Assembly (NCBI GenBank): GCA_028753945.1
Contig: JAPNXP010000001.1
Span: 10,344,501 to 10,408,500 of the forward strand
DNA from: Hexactinellida sp. DTS-2022
Lineage: Eukaryota > Porifera > Hexactinellida
DNA: 64,000 nt
Direction: 5' to 3'
Shown here: piece by piece, positions 9,001 to 64,000 of the stretch
How the letters are laid out: each line of letters opens with the position of its first letter
Position numbering within the stretch: position 1 is the first letter of the stretch
Notes under the pieces: model-generated
What the model saw: only the letters and a program-made list of their open reading frames with translations
What the model was told of the DNA's origin: nothing
Databases searched by the model: none
Made by a program: the position numbers and the translations under genes

Positions 9001-9230
9001 TGTCACGAAATATTCGGTCCGGGGTAAATTTGGTCCGGCCGGACCAAATATATCAGAAATATTTGGTCCGGCCGGACATAAAATTTCCCGGACCGAATAT
9101 TTCAGACATTTTTGGTCCGGGTTTGCAAAATGTCCGGCCGGACTAAATATTTCAGATGTTTTTGGTCCGGCCTAAAATTTTCGGTCCGGCCGGACCAAAT
9201 ATATCAGAAATATTTGGTCCGGGTGGATTC
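9001..9230. repeat. Cluster of GGTCCGGCCGGACC palindromes
   Basis: At least six copies of GGTCCGG or its complement alternate with AAATAT(T)TCAGA spacers over 230 bp. It begins next to CCTGTCACGAAATATTCGG. A related block inside the element at 26752-26850 ends TTTTTCGTGACAGG, so these may be two members of one transposon family. Confidence 0.7.
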
Positions 9231-9657
9231 TTAATATTATTTTAGAAAATAGACATTTAATTGAATTTACTAAAAATTATTTGAAAATCTACTATAGTAC
9301 GTATTTAGTAGGGGTCTTCATACAATGGTTCGCGAGTGGAACGTGGCTCACAAGTATGTTCTGTGTGACTGCATTAACTTGTGTATATTCTTGTTATGAG
9401 TATATAATAGACTAATAGTTAGTGCAGTGCCTCTCAATTTATTTACTAAGCGATGATTGATGTCTGTTTGTCTGTTTGTAGCACAGGTGTCATGTAGCGG
9501 CATGGCGAGATGCGCTACTAAAAGATGAGTCACTCCCAGGAGGCCTAGGTGCTGCTAGAGTCCGCGAGGGACAGGAGCGAGAGCAGACCTAGAGTGTGCG
9601 CTGACGAAGCTGCTAGGCAGCGAGAGAGGTCAGGCACAACGGTCGCAGTGAGCGTAC

Positions 9658-9713
9658 CGAGGGTAGAGGACTGGACCGTCCTCCTGATGAGGCCTGGAAG
9701 GCCGAAACCCTTG
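9658..9713 (+). ncRNA. Type III hammerhead ribozyme in the forward LTR
   Basis: Folded by eye. Stem III: CGAGGGU (9658-9664) with ACCCUUG (9707-9713), 7 bp including one G-U. Cleavage triplet GUA, with the cut expected after A9665. Stem I: GAGGAC (9666-9671) with GUCCUC (9678-9683). Core CUGAUGA (9684-9690). Stem II: GGCC (9691-9694) with GGCC (9700-9703) closing a UGGAA loop. Core GAAA (9704-9707). All invariant core positions of the hammerhead are present, in the type III order. Confidence 0.85.
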
Positions 9714-9791
9714 AGTGGTGGCGACACCACTTGGACCGCCCGCAGTCAGGAACTGTGGCAACTTGATGAGGTCCCAAAGCTTCATAACAAT

Positions 9792-9809
9792 TGGTGCATT
9801 GGCCGGGAA
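9792..9809 (+). other. Primer-binding site for tRNA-Gly(GCC)
   Basis: TGGTGCATTGGCCGGGAA starts two bases after the LTR end. It is the exact complement of the last 18 bases, including CCA, of the usual animal tRNA-Gly(GCC) (recalled sequence, not searched). This makes the element a true LTR retroelement rather than a Penelope-type one. Confidence 0.85.
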
Positions 9810-9991
9810 CGAGCCAGGGTAAGTCCCACGAGATCGGGCGGAAGCTTTGTAGGGGAGAGTGATGTCATGTAGCGGCATGGCGAGATGCGCTACTAAAAGA
9901 TGAGTCACTACCAATTGTTATGAAGCTTTGGGACCTCATCAAGTTGCCACAGTTCCTGACTGCGGGCGGTCCAAGTGGTGTCGCCACCACT

Positions 9992-10047
9992 CAAGGGTTT
10001 CGGCCTTCCAGGCCTCATCAGGAGGACGGTCCAGTCCTCTACCCTCG
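9992..10047 (-). ncRNA. Type III hammerhead ribozyme in the inverted LTR
   Basis: The same 56-nt ribozyme as at 9658-9713, on the minus strand inside the inverted LTR, with the core and stems unchanged as far as I can read. Confidence 0.83.
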
Positions 10048-10276
10048 GTACGCTCACTGCGACCGTTGTGCCTGACCTCTCTCGCTGCCTAGCAGCTCCG
10101 TCAGCGCACACTCTAGGTCTGCTCTCGCTCCTGTCCCTCGCGGACTCTAGCAGCACCTAGGCCTCCTGGGAGTGACTCATCTTATGGTAGCGCATCTCAC
10201 TATGCCGCTACATGACACAGGCTCCAGGGGTGGTGAATCTGCTGTTAACAGCCATTTTGGCTGTTTGCTGTTCCAG

Positions 10277-10699
10277 CTTTTAGTGCATGCTTCCAATATT
10301 CTGTCAAAGAGCCGATACGCACTTCTGGTGGTGGACAGCGCGACTGGTCTCTTCCGGACAGATTACTCGGGGAGGGGAGAGCTATACGCCCGACAAACGC
10401 TCCTGGGCAGGTTTTTGCGCGCGTTGCAAAGAATGGCCGACGAATTCGGAATTGCTGTGGTTCTAACAAACCAAGTCGTAGCGCAGGTGGGTGGCGCTTG
10501 TAGATATACCTCCTTGGATGCGAATATACCCATCGGGGGCAATATTATTGCCCACGCCTCCACCACAAGGCTGTATATTAGGAATGGGAGGGCAGAATCT
10601 CGACTATGCCAAATTACCGCATCGCCGTGTTTGCCGGAAGGCGAAACTGTATTTGCCATCCTCCCGGGAGGGATAGGCGATGTCACAGATTTAAAATAA
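10277..10699 (+). CDS. RAD51: RAD51 recombinase, C-terminal exon only
   Basis: 140 codons matching the C-terminal half of RAD51, the strand-exchange recombinase. The exon starts after a good acceptor (TTTGCTGTTCCAG) with LLVHAS, then Walker [22 protein letters not shown], the L1-region sequence, LTNQVVAQV, and [16 protein letters not shown] near L2, ending with a TAA. The Walker A half, the N-terminal domain and their exons are not visible anywhere upstream to TP53RK; the sequence there is repeat and the hammerhead LTR element. Several residues differ from typical RAD51 (e.g. [12 protein letters not shown] in the L2 loop). It is either the last exon of a gene with distant upstream exons or an orphan fragment; the clean frame argues against great age. 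Confidence 0.8.
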
Positions 10700-11193: not shown

Positions 11194-12594
11194 AAAAAAA
11201 TCCAAAATTGCAGCCTGTGCCGACGCATGTTCCTTTGGTGGCACTATATTTTGGTGGTGGTTTATTGATAGTGCCTTCATAGGAACATGCTCTCGGCACA
11301 GGCTGCAATTTTGGATTTTTTTCCGCCATGTCATCATCACTATGAAGGTGTTAAATTATTTCAGAAAGGTGTTTCAGAAGGAAACGACCCTTAGAGTCGT
11401 GGAAGTTTCCATTTTGCTCACTTCGTTTCAAAGATATTCAAGTTTCAGTAGAATATAATAAGTGATGAGTCAGCATTTTTTATGTGAGTGTTGGGTCATC
11501 ACCCAAACATCAACTAACCCATTTTAAATATCAGATTAACAAAAGTGTAAAAACACATTTTTTTTAACGATGTCATCATCACCTCAAGGTGTCAAGACCC
11601 ACTTGTATAGGTGGCACGTGCCATAGGGACCAATTGATAAATTGAAATTTTGTTTCTATCTTGTAAGTTGTAACTTCTCTGAGATTAATGAAATTTAGCT
11701 AATTAGTATAAATATTTAATAAATTTATTAATTATTTAACACCATTATTATGTACAGCAAAATAAATTAAGTTCAATTATTTGCAATTATTATTAATTTG
11801 AATTTAATTTCACTATGATATTTGAATTCAGCGCACTCGATAACCCCAATAATCTAATTCGAACCGTCTCTATAAGTTAAACACAGAGCGAATTAATTAG
11901 AATTAACTTCCTCATGTATCCATTGTGCAATAATATTCTGAGCAGAAATAAATATAATCACATAATCTGTCGTTGTTATGGAATGTAAAATCTTAGTTTT
12001 CAATTGGAAAATAGAAGCCTACTCGATTTCACAAGTTGAATCAATATAATTATCGCAAGTTTAAACAATAGTGCAAGATTTAACAAGTCTAATCAATATA
12101 TTTATTACAAGTTGAATCAATGGAAATTGATTTAACAGTTTTACTGAATCTGAAGTGTGAGGAAATACAGGAGATTGGTACCCCAATTAAGGCACAAATC
12201 TAGGCCAAATTGAACATCTTTGATTTGCTAAAAGGTGTAGAATTTAATTCTCTATCCGTATATGTAAATTTTATCAAGCTCAAGATTAATTCTTCCATGT
12301 TATGAGCAATAATTAGTTTAAATAGGTGTTAAAATTAATTGATAAAAAATCGTAACCCCAGGTGCAAATTAGACGGTCACTCCGCTACTACATGCCAAAT
12401 TTCAGCCCTTAATGTATACAGGTGTGGTCAGGGCACCTGCTACGGAGAAATAATAAAAATAATAAAAAAAATCCAAAATTGCAGCCTGTGCCGACGCATG
12501 TTCCTTTGGTGGCACTATATTTTGGTGGTGCTTTATTGATAGTGCCTCCATAGGAACATGCTCTCGGCACAGGCTGCAATTTTTGGATTTTTTT
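11194..12594. mobile_element. Hairpin-bounded non-autonomous element, ~1.4 kb
   Basis: A hairpin (H2, 11194-11322; TCCAAAATTGCAGCCTGTGC with its complement) is followed by a ~380-bp block (CGCCATGTCATCATCACTATG onward), then a ~600-bp block containing ATTTGAATTCAGCGCACTCG and GTTAAACACAGAGCGAATTA, then a second hairpin (H3, 12464-12594). The same blocks in the same order occur at 23938-25240 and, interrupted, at 47224-51700. No ORF of note lies inside. Boundaries and target duplication are uncertain. Confidence 0.6.
12464..12594. repeat. Hairpin family, copy H3
   Basis: Inverted repeat AATCCAAAATTGCAGCCTGT and its complement with a ~50-bp centre including GTGGCACTATATTTTGGTGG. It is followed by the CGCCATGTCATCATCAC block (12595-12770). 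Confidence 0.8.
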
Positions 12595-12773
12595 CCGCCA
12601 TGTCATCATCACTATGAAGGTGTTAAATTATTTCAGAAAGGTGTTTCAGAAGGCAACGACCCTTAGAGTCGTGGAAGTTTCCATTTTGCTCACTTCGTTT
12701 CAAAGATATTCAAGTTTCAGTAGAATATAATAAGTGATGAGTCAGCATTTTTATGTGAGTGTTGGGTCATCAC

Positions 12774-12940
12774 CAGGCCCGGCGGAAGAGGGGCGGTTGG
12801 GGCGGCCTGGGCCGCCCCACTTTTTCTGTGATTTGTATGGTACTTTGAAATTTCGCGGGCGTGGTTCGTAATACTATTATACAAGGCTGCCCCACATCTC
12901 ACAAGGCCGCCCCACCTCTCACGAGCTTCCGCCGGGCCTG
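12774..12940. mobile_element. hAT-like MITE, 167 bp (CAGGCCCGGCGGAAG)
   Basis: Ends are CAGGCCCGGCGGAAG and CTTCCGCCGGGCCTG. It is nearly identical over its full 167 bp to 20878-21044, so both insertions are recent. No clear target duplication is seen for this copy, suggesting a later rearrangement on one side. Confidence 0.8.
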
Positions 12941-34640: not shown

Positions 34641-34764
34641 TCAAGTTAACGACCGCTATGCGGCCTTACTCCCCACCGTTGCTACCATGGAAAATGTTAG
34701 AGGAAGTTATATACAACTCTTTCTACCATTTCCATAGTTTTAACGTGTTTACGAATAATTCCCG

Positions 34765-35640
34765 TCTGAAGCAAACATCTAGAATGATTTTGAACTTTTC
34801 GTTAATTTGTTTACATATTTTTGGTAAACAACATAACAACAACAAATATTCATATTTGAAATTAAAAAATGCGAAATTCGTGTTCAGCACACTTGTTTAC
34901 CTATAATACCCTTTGAAAGCAAACTTCTAGGTTGATTTCGAATTTCATTAATTTGTTTACCTATTTTGTGTAGACAACAACAACAACAAATATTCATATT
35001 ATAAATTTATAAACGCGAAATTCGTGTTCAGCACACTTGTTTACCAATAATACCCGTTGAAAGCAAATTTCTAGGTTGATTTTGAATTTCGTTAATTTGT
35101 TTACCTATTTTGTGTAAACAACAACAACAACAAATATTCATATTATAAATTTATAAACGCGAAATTCGTGTTCAGCACACTTGTTTACCAATAATACCCG
35201 TTGAAAGCAAATTTCTAGGTTGATTTTGAATTTCGTTAATTTGTTTACCTATTTTGTGTAAACAACAACAATAAATAATTCATATTATAAATTTATAGAC
35301 GCGAAATTCGTGTTCAGCATAATTGTTTACCTATAATACCCGTTGAAAGCTAACTTCTAGGTTGATTTTGAATTTCATCAATTTGTTTACCTATTTTGTG
35401 TAAACAACAACAATAAATATTCATATTATAAATTTATTGACGCGAAATTCGTGTTCAGCATACTTGTTTACCTATAATCCCGTTGAAAGCTAACTTCTAG
35501 GTTGATTTTGAATTTTCATTAATTTGTTTACCTATTTTGTGTAAACAACAACAAATATTAATATGAGAAATTTATAAACGCGAAATTCGTGTTCAGCATA
35601 CTTGTTTACCTTAATAACATTTGTTTACCTATTATAACAT
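34765..35640. repeat. Tandem array, ~142-bp unit, about six copies
   Basis: Each unit contains CTAGGTTGATTTTGAATTTC, TTTACCTATTTTGTGTAAAC, (AAC)n, and CGCGAAATTCGTGTTCAGCA. Units start near 34770, 34915, 35058, 35200, 35345 and 35490 and become more alike in the middle. Minisatellite. Confidence 0.85.
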
Positions 35641-38545: not shown

Positions 38546-38849
38546 GTTAATTAAATAAATGAATTTGCTAGTGTCTGTAAATTATACTAGAAAGGTGTTG
38601 CCCGATATGCAAGTTTTTTAAATTGGAATTTGTTGATGTTATTTGAGTTTTGGAAAGAATAATTACGTAGTAATAAATAAATACTCATAAAAACAACAGC
38701 AAATATGTTTATCTTTAAGCCTGTTTGTTTAGAATAAATACAACAGGTCCTATATAGATAAATAATTAAAATAAGAAACATCATGTGTGATGAGCATGAG
38801 ACACCGTAATATGTATCCCACACTCACCAAGAGCAACGCGTGATGGGTA

Positions 38850-39100
38850 GTGGTTTCGTCCTATCACAAGGACTCATCAGGAGCAGGGGCGCCCGCAGGC
38901 ATACGCACTATACGCACGTGCGTATAGTAAATTTATCTGTTAATTTATTATAACACTCTTTTGTGCTAAGATTTTTTGAAATTAGTCACAAGACTCATGA
39001 GTTTGGAAAATGGATACAGAAACTGCCTGAAAAAACCTATTGTGCGTACATTATTTTTTTACCTGCGGGCGCCCCTGATCAGGAGGGAACCCTCGACCAC
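38850..39100 (-). ncRNA. Type III hammerhead ribozyme, interrupted by a MITE
   Basis: Minus strand. Upstream part (39100-39086): stem III GUGGU, cleavage triplet GUC, stem I GAGG with CCUC. Downstream part (38883-38850): CUGAUGA core, stem II GUCC with GGAC, GAAA core, stem III ACCAC (38854-38850). The hAT MITE 38884-39077 has inserted between stem I and the core, duplicating CTCCTGAT. All three stems and the core are readable on either side of it. Confidence 0.8.
38884..39077. mobile_element. hAT MITE (CAGGGGCGCCCGCAGG)
   Basis: 194 bp, ends CAGGGGCGCCCGCAGG and ACCTGCGGGCGCCCCTG, perfect 8-bp target duplication ATCAGGAG (38876-38883 and 39078-39085). Inserted in the hammerhead of the solo LTR. 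Confidence 0.93.
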
Positions 39101-39610
39101 ACTACAACTGGTCTACTCCAGTTCTAGTTACCAGTGAGCCATGCCGTTCTCCTACCACAGGTACTAAGCATAACTCACCTACACTAGGATCCCTCTAGTG
39201 CACTCCTGTCAGCCCGTCATCACACATGTGCAACATAATCTCCAAAATTTCTCCCAATAACACAATTCCAAACAGGGGTGTATGTATCATATATCAAATT
39301 CCTTCTTGACATAATTTTCTCCACATGGTTACAAGAAAAGAATGTAATCTATAGTTTGGTGAATTCTACACAAATATCAATTTATATTCAGTGTACTAGT
39401 GCATATTTACTATCACTATCATAGTATGCATGCTAATAGAGCAATTGCTATTGACAACGCCACTGTAAATATAGTACACAATCTACATACACTTCATATT
39501 ATAATACACCCATATCACTAATGTACAGGTTTACAACAATAACCAATTTTGAATAATTATTTATATAAAACTTCACCATTCACCTTATTCCTTGATTATT
39601 CTAACATTTC

Positions 39611-47223: not shown

Positions 47224-47740
47224 AAAATCCAAAATTGCAGCTGTACCGACGCATTTCCCTTTGGTGGCTACCGGTTGGGTAATTGATAGTGCCTCCAAGG
47301 AAAATGCTAACGTCACAGCTGCAATTTTGGATTTTTTCGCCATGTCATCATCACTATGAAGGTGTTAAATTATTTCAGAAAGGTGTTCAGAAGGCAACGA
47401 TCCTTAGAGTGGTGGAAATTCGTTTTAGCTCACTTCATTCTAGAGCTATTCAAGCTTCAGTAGAATATAATAGGTGATGACTCAGCATTTTATATGTACG
47501 TGTTAGGTGATCACCCAACACCAACCAACCCATTCGAATTATAGAATTAACAAAATTGTAAAAACACATTTTATTGACGATGTCATCATCACCTCAAGGT
47601 GTCAACAGTCTCAACACCCATTTGTAGAGGTGTTATGTGGCATAAGGATCAATCGATCAATTTGAAGTTTGTTTCTATCTTGTATCATCTCTGAGATTAA
47701 TGGTATTTAGCAAATTAGTATAAATAATAATTATAATAAT
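47224..47740. repeat. Hairpin family, copy H9, with downstream block
   Basis: Hairpin 47224-47337 (AAATCCAAAATTGCAGCTGT and complement), then the ~400-bp block with CGCCATGTCATCATCACTAT and AACCCATTCGAATTATAG. It leads into the PHD-finger LINE; the family's second block resumes after that LINE (51420-51640). Confidence 0.75.
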
Positions 47741-47878
47741 TATAATAATTAATAATTGAGATGTTGGGGACTTTAGTAAGTTACCACTACTTTTACAAAC
47801 TCTTCAAATAAAAACTTACAGCATAATTATAATACATATAGTCTACACTCTCTACCAGGAGGTGGGATCCACAGAGCA

Positions 47879-48541
47879 ATGAGTGAACCAACCGAAGAGT
47901 ATGTCTCTGAAGAGGTCACTCGCTGCATTTGTGGGTTTACACATGATGATGGGTACATGATCTGGTGTGACGGCTGCTCGGTGTGGCAACATATGGCCTG
48001 CATGGAGGTGGATCAGACTGATATCCCGGAAAAATATTATTGCGAGACATGCGATCCCAGACCAGTCAATACAGAAAGTGCCAAAAGGATCCAGACACTC
48101 CTTTCTGAATCGGAACTTAGTGGAGAAGATATTGGGGCAGCCCTATGCCCAATAGTAGTGCCCAATAAGCTTTCACCCGAAGGAGCCCCTCTAACCCAAG
48201 GAGTAGTTCGGGCCCCAGGAGCATCCTTATCTGAACGAGATGCAGATGTCGAGGTAGTTCGAATAATATTGCCAATCCCTGTTGAAGATAAAACCAAACA
48301 TAATCCAGTATCTTGGGTTAAAAACATTCCCAGGAACAGGACTGAAGGTCGTCCAATGGATATGGTTTGTACTGTATGCAATCGCGAAATCGCCGTCAAT
48401 GCATCGGGATTAGTCCGAACACACGGACCGATTTCGAGCCGGTGTCCTGGTTCGTGGAAAGTAGCGGCATTTTTGGTCCCTCCTCTCGATCTGCTAAACA
48501 GCCCTCAGTTGACCATCACCCAAATCAAGAGAACCAAGTAA
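47879..48541 (+). CDS. PHD finger and CCHC protein, first part of the LINE
   Basis: 220 residues. The PHD finger (15-60) reads [20 protein letters not shown] then [20 protein letters not shown], with Cys4-His-Cys3 ligands. It is strikingly like the PHD of KMT2E/MLL5 and SETD5 ([19 protein letters not shown] as I recall it), which reads H3K4me3. Near the C-terminus [20 protein letters not shown] and SSRCPGSW form a C-x2-C-x-H-x-C knuckle. It probably helps the element find open chromatin or bind nucleic acid (inference). The next ORF overlaps it in another frame and was probably fused originally. Confidence 0.8.
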
Positions 48542-50433
48542 ACCTTACAAAATCGCAAGCCAAAACTATCAAAAGAATACCCCGGGCTTCCAGGAATAAT
48601 GCTGCGAGAAAATTAGCCTCGATTATCGAAGAGGTTGTGGCGCACAACGATCTTACCTCGTGGAATCGTCTTTTCCTCTTTCCTTCCCGCTGCCTTCGGG
48701 CCCCACCGAGAGGAGGGAGACGATGGAATGTTACTAAGGCAATCAACAACCAGATCAGAGAGGAAACTGACCCACCACCAATCCCAAACAGGACAAACAG
48801 TGCAAGACAGAAGAAAATAGACCACCCAGACCTAATGGACGCTCTAGCTACCCGCGTAACCGAGAAGCTGGAAGATGGAGACTTCAGAGGGGCAATCCGT
48901 ATCGCTTGCTCACTGGACTCAATAGCGGAAAAGAACGAAGTAACGTGGAGAAGTCTACAGGCGAAACACCCGGAACAACAGCAAGACACCCTTATTCCAA
49001 CAGCTCCGTCCGAAGATGATGTTTCCTCTTCGATTGTTGTCACGGAGGCCAATGTAGTTCAGGCGATTCAATCATTCCCAAACGGGTCAGCCGCTGGCCC
49101 AGACGGCCTACGTCCCCAACATCTCAAAGACATGACACATGCGTCAGCGGGGGAAGGAGGACTCCAGCTCCTCAAAGCTCTAACATCTTTGACAAACCTA
49201 GTCCTAAATGGTTTTACTCCGCATTCAATCCGCCCTTTATTTTTCGGAGCCAACCTCATTGCCCTCGAGAAACCGGAAGGCGGGATAAGGCCAATTGCTG
49301 TTGGCTGTACTATCCGACGCTTATCAGCAAAACACGCCGTAAAAAATGTTATTTCGACCATTGGTCCGCTCCTTGCACCACAACAATTGGGGTTCGGTAC
49401 TCCACATGGGGCTGAGGCGGCGGTACACGCAGCTCGCTGTTACCTGAAAGATATGCCGGATACACATATCCTTTTGAAGCTGGACTTCAAGAATGCCTTC
49501 AACAGTATCCGTAGAGACAAAATGTTGGCAGCAGTGAGGGATAAAATTCCAAACATTTTCCCTTTCGTGTACTCAAACTATTCAGAACCATCCCACCTAT
49601 ATTGGGGAGACAGATATCTGGAATCGGCCGAGGGAGTGCAACAGGGGGATCCTCTGGGGCCTATGTTGTTCTGTTTATGCATCCACCATATAACATCATA
49701 TCTAAAATCCGAGCTATGCCTACTATATTTGGATGACTGGATGGTAGGAGGCGATGCTAAAGATCTTGTCTCTGACCTATCAACTATCGAAGTGGCCGCA
49801 AATGAACTAGGACTACACCTTAACCGAAAGAAGTCTGAAGCCATCTCTTTTGGTAGAAATGCGCTTGACTTAATAACCTCTATAGTTCCAGATATAAAAA
49901 TCACCCACCCAGATCAAGCGACACTTATCGGCTCGCCTCTAGGCAACCTGGGTAGTATTTCATTAGCAATTCGGGAGAAAGTGAGCAAACTACAGATAAT
50001 AGGAGAGAGGCTCAAGTATTTCCATTCCCAGGATGCCCTATCTCTCCTCAGGCACTCCTTCGCACTACCCAAAATGCTCTACATTCTTCAGACTTCTCCC
50101 TGTTATGAATCTGATAACCTTTCTATCTACGACGACCTTTTGAAGTCATTAACCAGCAGGATATTGAATATATCCTTTCGGGATAACGAGTCTGCATGGA
50201 CCCAGGCAACTCTTCCAGTTGGGTCTGGCGGGCTAGGAATCCGGAGTGCAGTGCAGCTTGCGCCGTCTGCTTTTATAGCATCTGCTGCTGCCTCCTCCGA
50301 ACTAGTCCAACAGATCTTGCCACCCCGATTACGCCATTTGCACAGACTCTGTCTAGACAATTCTATACGCCATTGGGAAAATATACACGAAAAACCAGCA
50401 CCATTACCCCACTCAATACATATCCAGAATTAG
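48367..50433 (+). CDS. Reverse transcriptase of the PHD-finger LINE
   Basis: Usable coding begins at about 48470; the ATG at 48367 is just where the frame opens. RT motifs: [75 protein letters not shown] (motif A), [20 protein letters not shown] (motif B), [11 protein letters not shown] (motif C, catalytic DD), then thumb-like [18 protein letters not shown] and [12 protein letters not shown]. It ends at a TAG in frame with the next ORF, so the original protein continued. Confidence 0.85.
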
Positions 50434-61403: not shown

Positions 61404-64000
61404 TGGATCCCCTCGAATACGAGTCGATTTCAGCATACCTCACTTCTGACAGATATCCACTAAATTTCACCAAAGATCAAAAGAGAAATTTACGCAGAAA
61501 AGCGTCAAAATACCGCATCTTTGGGGAGAAACTAGTTTTAAGCCCTTCGAAAATCAACATTTGATCGTAATAATGCGAACCGAGGTGGGGGCCATTCTCA
61601 CAGAAATTCACGACAACTCTGGCCATCAATGCATTCGGTACACTCATAGCATTGCAAAAGATCGGTACTATTGGCCCAGTATGCTCAAGGATATCGAGCT
61701 CTATGTACAAGCCTGTGCCCGTTGCATCAGAAATCAGCCCAGTTTGAAAAGTCCCACGGTTCCTCTACAACCGCTTCCAGTAATCACCAAAGTTTGGTTC
61801 CGCGTTGGTATGGATCTGACTGGGCCTCTGATAGAATCGAATGGGTACAAGTACATATTAACCGTTATCGATCATTTTACAAGATGGATTGAGACGCGCC
61901 CTCTTCGTACGAAAGAAGCTATCGAAGTAGCCAGAGGTTTGTTTTCTATTTACTGCAGACAAGGAGCACCTGTTCAAATAATTAGTGACAATGGCACTGA
62001 GTTTACTAACAAGTTACATAAATCTTTACACGAAGCATATGATTGCAAATTAATATTCTCAACGCCATATCACCCTCAGACCAATGGGCTAGTAGAATCG
62101 TCGCATAAAGCTTTGAAGCGATCCCTTGTAAAAACTTTAGATGGAAAAAAAAGAGAATTGGAGTGACTATCTGGAAGAGATAACTTTTTCATTGAATATT
62201 CGACCTCGACATACAACACAGTTCTCTGCCTTTGAGTTGATGCACGGCTCTCGTAAACCTCGACTTCCAATCCAAGCTGAGAATCTTGCGGCTCTATATC
62301 CTGATGCTGGTACCTTAGACCTGGACGAATGGGCTGGAGAGGAGCAAATAAATGAATTCATCGACACTATGCAAGAAGCTCATATGCATAACCAAGAAAT
62401 TGCCGGAGAATCTCTTAAACATTCTAAAACATTGATGAAAAGGCAATTTGATAAAAGATTGAACCCGGTCACTTTAAACACAATCGAAAAAGGAGATGAA
62501 GTTCTTATAGAAAATGTATATAATAGGAAAAAAGGAGGCAAGCTAGAAGATAAGTGGATTGGCCCATATCTTGCAGATGAAGTAAATCCTACTAATGTCC
62601 GTGTAAGCCGAAATAAATCAATCCAACGTGTGAAGAAATCTAAAACAAAGCTCTGGAAAAAACGATCATTACCACTTCCAGATTCACCTAACAGCAAACG
62701 TTTACGTTTAGATGGAGATTTCGATTCAAACGAAGAGGAAATTATTGCCTCTCCTTTTCTTGGGCAAGAAGAAATCATACCTGTTTCGTCAAACAAATCT
62801 AACAGAAATCGAGAAGAAATTTTGCAAGTGCTAGTTTCATTCAAGAGTAAAATCATAAACTCCATTCTAACTTCAACTCCTTTATCCCCACTTCACTCTC
62901 AACTTCATATCAGAAGCCACTTTGATTTTAGAGATCTAATGGATTGGAGATATGCTCACTATCCTTCAATCAACAGTGAAGAGTTTGAAATGGATCTCGA
63001 TACCACGCAAGAGATAACTGAAGTACTAACACAGTTTTATTTGGAGAGCTATAAGGTTAAAATTCCAGAGTACCAGTACACCTCTCAAGACTTTGAATTC
63101 TCCACTAAATGGGCCACGGATAGTATGAATTATGCAACAAAAGTTCTACTACCTGTGGTCAAGGAACTTCTGGCCGCACACTTTGAACCTTCGGTAGCTT
63201 CAGAATATCAAAAATTACCACCACTTCAAAGATTTTCTAATTCAGGAGCTTCATTTGAAGAAATGTGCCCCACTTGGGGAGGTCACTATGATGGAGTAAA
63301 ATTAACTAACACGTGTTCAATCGATAATTTTATCACATTATTCAGTCTACACAAAGAGGCCATACTAGCAGCATTCGATCTAACTGGAGATTCGCCAAAT
63401 CCTACACTTCGATCTATCTTCTCAATGGTTGATGAACAAAATTTTGACAAACTTAGACTGTGGACAGCTCCTAAGCTAGGAATGTCAATTAGCGACTCTG
63501 AATGCAACATGTTAGGATATGAGGGGAAAATGGTCAAATTCTTGCAAGATAACAATTTTTGTCAAGACATTTATAGAATTGTATTTCAATGCTGGAGTTG
63601 TTGCTGTGAGTCAGAGAAAAGACTCAATCTAAATTCAGTCTTGGAATTTAAAACCAATTGTCAATCTTCAATCGAACACCAAATCAATTCAGCTTATAAC
63701 TGTTTGAAGTGTCGAGAGCCTAATGCCAACATAGAGAGCTTGTCAAAAGAATTTTCTTCAGTGCCTCCTCTTATTATCCTTGAAGTTGGACATCTTAACA
63801 CTAGTACTATCCGTGAGAGCAGTATTGAAGATCATATTAGGATCACTCATCAAGAGAAGCTACTGCATTACTCACTCCTCGCTTACACAATTCATTCTGG
63901 AATACACTTCCATATGAAGACCAAGTACCGTGATATCTGGTATGTATATGATGGAATGGAAAGGCCGAAATTAAAGCAAGCGGAAAGGATAATCCATGAT
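61404..64000 (+). mobile_element. Integrase-bearing element (gypsy/GIN-type) with cysteine-protease-like region, fossil, runs off the window
   Basis: Treated as a fossil. From 61404 an N-terminal segment; 61561-62166 carries the zinc-binding H-C2 region (HSIAKDRYYWPSM, CARCIRNQ) and the integrase core (GMDLTGPLI, VIDHFTRWIETR, ISDNGTEF, HPQTNGLVES), i.e. the DDE pattern of gypsy/Ginger/KRBA2-like integrases. Downstream, to the window edge, an open stretch encodes a basic linker and a region with NTCSIDNFITLF and, near the end, HYSLLAYTIHSGIHFHMK then WYVYDGM: the Cys and His boxes of a USP-like (C19) peptidase fold. The upstream part is broken (about two or three breaks). No LTR seen within the window. 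Confidence 0.75.

Follow-up and report, generated by a model that had tools for sequence, protein, structure and literature searches.

LTR retrozymes have been described in plants, and the retrozymes reported from metazoans are non-LTR elements with type I hammerheads, according to the portions of the literature that were available (PMC7229834, PMC7761336, PMC4918200, PMC10886601, PMC11721086, PMC7936874, PMC11722881, PMC6155905). In these same partial texts, complete LTR retrozymes are placed in dicots only, with hints in early land plants and algae, and they are proposed as a source of viroids; those of distant plant species share only the hammerhead and the end boxes (PMC4918200). Type III hammerheads have been described in animals in other settings, namely in HDV-like RNAs and in dipterans (PMC7936874, in part) and, according to partial texts, as an atypical split motif associated with mammalian Clec2. 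No LTR retrozyme of an animal was found in the portions of the open-access PMC literature examined.

Here we describe an insertion at 9488-10217 of the window (the whole 64,000-nt stretch of DNA that was analysed) which, judging from its sequence, likely works like an LTR retrozyme. It is probably an animal LTR retrozyme of the non-autonomous kind, whose circular unit would measure ~375 nt and which would be moved by Ty3/Gypsy-type enzymes. As it stands, the copy is an incomplete member of that class: its direct LTR pair is incomplete and paired hammerheads are missing.

Layout and LTR signals of the insertion

The whole element measures 730 bp and consists of two inverted arms of 308 bp separated by a 114-bp spacer, with a 4-bp duplication at its ends. 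Its features are as follows.

9484-9487, no strand: left target-site duplication CAGG, which recurs at 10218-10221
9488-9789, plus strand: LTR of 302 bp, TGTCATG...CATAACA, 58.9% GC (from the sequence)
9658-9713, plus strand: type III hammerhead, predicted cleavage at 9665/9666, stems III, I and II of 7, 6 and 5 bp (RF00008, fold and descriptor)
9790-9862, plus strand: interior of 73 bp, apparently non-coding (sequence and frame list)
9792-9809, plus strand: primer-binding site of 18 bases, exact complement of an animal tRNA-Gly(GCC) 3' end (tRNA tables of PMC7555719 and PMC11277137)
9851-9859, plus strand: purine tract AGGGGAGAG, then TGA (3 bases) to the next LTR start (by eye)
9863-9909, plus strand: second direct LTR, first 47 bp only, identical to LTR 1 (sequence comparison)
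9910-10217, minus strand: complete LTR in inverted orientation, with 6 nt from the primer-site region attached; it differs from the left arm at 5 sites, 4 of which lie within the first 47 nt
9992-10047, minus strand: second, identical copy of the hammerhead (Rfam match)
10218-10221, no strand: right target-site duplication CAGG (flank comparison)

An initial sequence-only reading had claimed a 302-bp LTR, a purine tract and nothing coding between one LTR and the next, and these claims were borne out by the TG...CA repeat at 9488-9789, by the tract at 9851-9859 as read by eye, and by the frames, the longest plus-strand stop-to-stop frame across the 375-bp unit being 107 aa. The GC content of the LTR compares with 34% and 40% in the 1-kb flanks. 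The same reading had placed the next LTR ~375 bp further on, and this is right as far as its start is concerned, since the LTR restarts at 9863, exactly 375 bp past the first LTR start and with the very base at which the insertion begins; the direct repeat does not extend beyond 47 bp, where the inverted LTR takes over, and a full direct LTR pair is therefore absent from this copy.

The primer-binding site begins two bases past the CA end of the LTR, and its 18-mer is unique in the window even when up to three mismatches are allowed (0.01 expected). Its tRNA partner was sought in two published tables, the first of which is presumably from mouse, going by the title of its paper. In the part of this table that was available (PMC7555719), the site is complementary at every base to the tRNA-Gly-GCC-2 3' fragment, in agreement with the 18-base tRNA-Gly(GCC) complement claimed initially, and the tRNA-Gly-GCC-1 fragment differs from it. 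Among the entries available in Table 1 of PMC11277137, two of the five animal tRNA-Gly match exactly (zebrafish and sea urchin, both given without CCA), and those of lamprey, elephant, marmoset, Arabidopsis, Medicago and five archaea do not match. On these sequences, the primer site fits some animal tRNA-Gly and neither of the two plant entries compared. The primer-site pattern was absent from viral contigs, in collections that hardly represent animals. Its single prokaryote match, in Methanogenium cariaci, was taken as chance, no tRNA gene being called in the 8-kb locus.

Further copies of the 375-bp unit were not found in the window, which holds short weak matches only, one of them being the second locus described below. 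Two other patterns, for the hammerhead and for the LTR start, gave no match in viral contigs, and blastn of the 375-bp unit gave none in plasmids or phages, these collections being other than animal genomes. No LTR helper was recognised among the nine protein stretches scanned with Pfam, in a window that contains 64 frames of at least 120 aa. Two reverse-transcriptase frames match the general RVT_1 model only, and we take them to be non-LTR. A reverse transcriptase frame at 48349-50430 (plus strand; RVT_1 by Pfam) lies beside a PHD-finger-like frame, the PHD assignment being by eye. Also, an integrase frame at 61453-62163 (plus strand) carries H2C2 and rve domains by Pfam and is followed by coding-looking sequence, with no LTR seen by eye.

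Hammerhead, RNA folding and the head-to-head structure

The segment 9658-9713 matches RF00008 over the full model at 39.8 bits with an unbroken core, the E-value being 5.6e-7 on 901 bp and 4e-5 on the whole window. The match falls below the Rfam gathering score of 48.5, so that a default scan lists nothing. In the whole-window Rfam scan up to an E-value of 5, there were 23 matches, of which three were to Hammerhead_3, 16 to microRNA models and four to others; since four of the matches to microRNA models had E-values below those of the hammerhead arms, the hammerhead E-value alone is not clean proof. The isolated 56-mer is predicted to fold exactly into the hammerhead, stem III having 7 bp, stem I 6 and stem II 5. 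The claimed type III form and intact core are upheld and the predicted cut position agrees with the cleavage that had been proposed at 9665/9666. A strict descriptor of type I and type III hammerheads found two places in the window, which are both arms of the element, and none in 30 dinucleotide shuffles searched on both strands. The hammerhead match is more than chance.

Folded as a circle, the 375-nt unit reaches -151.3 kcal/mol and is more stable than 100 shuffles (z -3.6); the linear LTR alone gives a z of -2.4 (200 shuffles). The best circle fold blocks the hammerhead, and forcing the hammerhead to form costs 3.4 kcal/mol. All five differences between the arms fall on unpaired bases of the circle fold, with a chance of 0.004 under independence, 2 in 1000 random draws, and 0.011 when the four close differences are moved as a block, and the right-arm variant retains all 125 pairs of that fold. 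The energy test is weaker, as 4.4% of 1000 random sets cost as little as the real changes. With no more than five changes to go by, their placement suggests that RNA folding is under selection.

The right half, 9910-10217, corresponds in reverse complement to the entire LTR and the 6 bases that follow it, at 98.4% identity, and on its sequence the insertion reads as a head-to-head rearranged insertion between CAGG duplications. Both of its outer ends are U3 ends, each flanked by CAGG. Four of the five arm differences lie within the first 47 nt (P 0.0026), in the very stretch where LTR 2 is identical to LTR 1, which suggests that the right arm was probably derived from a second source copy; if true, the family would be a multicopy one. 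We also considered that one plus strand had simply folded back on itself, which is disfavoured, since the right arm differs at 4 of the 47 sites where LTR 1 and LTR 2 agree.

Two plus-strand DNAs could instead have been joined head to head during reverse transcription. The first would have run from the LTR through the interior into the start of the second LTR, and the second, resembling strong-stop DNA, would have comprised an LTR and 6 nt and come from a source copy that differed slightly; a plus-strand strong-stop product would gain just such 6 extra bases as it enters the primer site. The joined product would then have been inserted by integrase via its two U3 ends, and we infer that the structure preserves the trace of two plus strands joined in an unusual way and of an integrase that acted on two U3 ends. 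Inspection by eye showed no bases in common at the junction of the inverted half, and a rearrangement after insertion may also have been its source.

There is one hammerhead per DNA strand in this copy and no same-polarity hammerhead dimer, and the copy therefore cannot free the 375-nt unit by two cuts; its full transcript is predicted to pair as a long hairpin. The retrozyme cycle would belong to intact parents, whose transcripts (LTR-interior-LTR) would self-cleave in both LTRs to give the 375-nt unit. Once released, the unit would circularise, be primed by tRNA-Gly and be reverse-transcribed by a Ty3/Gypsy-type helper, whose integrase would insert the reverse-transcribed product.

Alternatively, the insertion could be an animal TRIM-like LTR element, whose LTR hammerhead is vestigial or serves only to trim a linear transcript, with no circular stage. 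The single hammerhead per strand would be in keeping with this, and animal Helenus TRIMs are known that have 4-bp duplications and Gypsy-like primer sites (PMC10886601, in the part available). However, cleavage within the LTR would strip the repeated ends needed for linear LTR copying, as can be gathered from the available text of PMC4918200, and both the stability of the circular fold and the confinement of the arm differences to its loops speak against it, so we regard this alternative as unlikely. It is much less probable that the head-to-head form is itself functional, as an inverted-dimer retrozyme with a hammerhead on both strands and a rod-like RNA; if true, it would be a natural step, in an animal, between retrozymes of a single polarity and viroid-like RNAs with cleavage in both.

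A second hammerhead-bearing locus

The third Hammerhead_3 match of the window, at 38849-38909 on the minus strand, is a weak one of 27.5 bits (E-value 0.12 on the window and 0.0019 on 1001 bp), and it led after the fact, through the whole-window Rfam scan, to a second locus with the following features.

38786-39224, minus strand: solo-LTR-like unit, 237 bp without its insert, with 8-bp inverted ends TGTGATGA...TCATCACA (ends and duplications)
38849-38883, minus strand: 3' half of a split type III hammerhead, with core, stem II, GAAA and stem III (RF00008)
38884-39077, no strand: 194-bp hAT-like insert splitting the hammerhead core, with an 8-bp duplication CTCCTGAT at 39078-39085 and 38876-38883
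39078-39100, minus strand: 5' half of the split type III hammerhead, with the GUC cleavage triplet and the stem III and stem I strands (sequence without the insert)
39225-39228, no strand: target-site duplication CATG, the other copy at 38782-38785

For the 194-bp insert, the family name hAT is presumptive. The Rfam alignment takes in insert bases up to 38909, and the hammerhead descriptor misses the locus while the insert is in place. With the insert removed, a type III hammerhead with a GUC triplet is obtained, stems I, II and III being 5, 5 and 4 bp by simple pairing, and it forms in the best fold of the 237-bp unit with a stem I of 4 bp; the fold of this unit has a z of -3.9 (200 shuffles). 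A search of the window for TGT..CA termini with 8/8 inverted ends, a 4-bp duplication and a length of 180-500 bp returned the second locus only, and nothing in 25 shuffles. At 7/8 the same search returned one further place (397-685) and 17 in the 25 shuffles, and since 7/8 ends are that common in shuffles, the strict 8/8 form alone is informative.

Compared with the first LTR, the second locus aligns over the hammerhead (26/33, E 7e-4), and outside it there are chance-level pieces and a loose match at the ends. No primer site was found behind the unit. From its sequence, the locus looks like a solo LTR with CATG duplications, a hammerhead-bearing and seemingly unrelated remnant 29 kb from the first element, and as a second LTR-like type III hammerhead locus in the window, with a 4-bp duplication, it also backs the LTR-retrozyme reading.

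The comparison of the two loci bears on a further alternative, a foldback or MITE-like DNA transposon whose ~308-bp inverted repeats carry the hammerhead, with coincidental LTR features. The size of the first insertion, its long inverted arms and short spacer and its 4-bp duplication would be in keeping with such an element, but large inverted arms of that kind were not seen at the second locus, and coincidence would have to account for an exact 18-base tRNA-Gly site two bases past the CA, for the purine tract and for an LTR that restarts at the terminal base, which leaves this explanation a slim chance.

Host, origin and comparison with known systems

The genes of the contig are animal-like, which on sequence grounds makes an animal host likely. 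Among the chains compared with the proteasome alpha-7 gene, the best ones, which we take to be mammalian, score 349-340, three others 293-304 and yeast PRE6 288. At 59 bp to the right of the element, past a likely splice acceptor, lie the C-terminal 140 aa of RAD51 in a single open frame (10277-10696, plus strand). This piece reaches 185 bits to RAD51 homolog 1 chains and ~160 bits to lower-scoring chains, which we presume to be mammalian and yeast RAD51, respectively. No Walker A motif of RAD51 was found in the window by a simple pattern, and the 140-aa stretch may be an orphan piece or may belong with distant exons. Pfam also recognises COG6, a DEAD helicase and calcium-binding EGF domains in the window, with the DDX23 model below its cut-off, and a search of the PDB with COG6 gave no match. 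The NHL and EGF proteins may hint at a sponge.

Several repeats were also observed in the window. An array of GGTCCGGCCGGACC-type palindromes with ~50-bp spacing occupies 9007-9227, just left of the element, and a satellite of 144 bp is present in ~6 copies at 34746-35616. An inverted-repeat MITE-like family has several copies (11194-11735, 12465-12774, 47224-47743 and others), and one of them is matched by a microRNA model of Rfam.

Assembly and libraries are known to give rise to foldback chimeras, and the inverted half of the first insertion could be one; this is very improbable, as the arms differ at 5 sites, the inversion breaks off precisely where the LTR ends, and both ends of the insertion are bordered by CAGG.

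The initial claim of an LTR-type retrozyme in an animal is supported in part, by the LTR anatomy, the type III hammerhead inside the LTR, the animal-fitting primer site, the 4-bp duplication and the animal-like genes, and it falls short at the paired direct LTRs. An LTR retrozyme in an animal lineage, with a primer tRNA to match, would mean that the RNA-circle strategy arose or spread more widely, and with a unit of viroid size, circle-templated reverse transcription could be tested directly in a system other than plants.

Among the systems already described, metazoan non-LTR retrozymes share with the present element an animal host and a small hammerhead unit (170-400 nt), but they differ by their type I hammerheads, low GC and tandem repeats, and they are described without LTR, primer site or purine tract and with longer duplications where these are present (PMC7229834, in the part available). 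Instead of the type I hammerhead and the lack of LTR and primer site that define those retrozymes, 9488-10217 has a type III hammerhead, an LTR and a primer site. The animal TRIMs Helenus and Ajax are, like the element, tiny non-coding LTR elements with a primer site and a purine tract, and Helenus likewise makes 4-bp duplications; unlike the element, their LTRs carry tRNA- or 5S-like sequence, according to the available text (PMC10886601). The word hammerhead occurs once in that paper, in its reference list (PMC10886601).

In regards to other hammerheads of animals, the type III motifs of HDV-like RNAs and dipteran genomes are of the same type as here, and in their extended forms helices I and II are long and their loops pair; the part of PMC7936874 that was available does not mention an LTR setting for them. 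Penelope-like elements and Terminons carry hammerheads in the terminal repeats of animal retroelements, as is the case here, but these are minimal type I motifs as opposed to type III, as far as the partial accounts go. To our knowledge, Penelope-like elements and Terminons have no tRNA primer site.

Finally, the closest likeness is with plant LTR retrozymes, again as given in partial texts. Shared with them are a type III hammerhead inside LTRs of 300-400 bp, a primer site and a purine tract, as well as the 4-bp duplication, the non-coding character and a hammerhead that is blocked in the predicted circle (PMC4918200), and the GC content of 58.9% is comparable to the >55% of the plant elements (PMC7229834). 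Helix I, with 6 bp and a 6-nt loop, has the shape given for plant retrozymes, whereas helix II has 5 bp and a 3-nt loop here and 4 bp and 4 nt in plants (PMC7936874). The primer is tRNA-Gly instead of tRNA-Met, the interior is 73 bp instead of 300-700, the unit is 375 nt instead of 600-1000, and the host is animal-like and the copy head-to-head where the plant elements have paired direct LTRs (PMC4918200). Although the architecture and GC agree with those of the plant elements, contamination from a plant, or the recent transfer of a plant retrozyme into an animal, is barely credible given the different primer tRNA and unit size, a primer site that fits the tRNA-Gly entries of two out of five animals and of neither of two plants (PMC11277137, in part) and the presence of animal-like genes on the one contig. 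As for the LTR retrozymes of an animal that we favour, the two loci in the window are alike only at the hammerhead and loosely at the ends, in the same way as the plant retrozymes of distant species (PMC4918200, in part).
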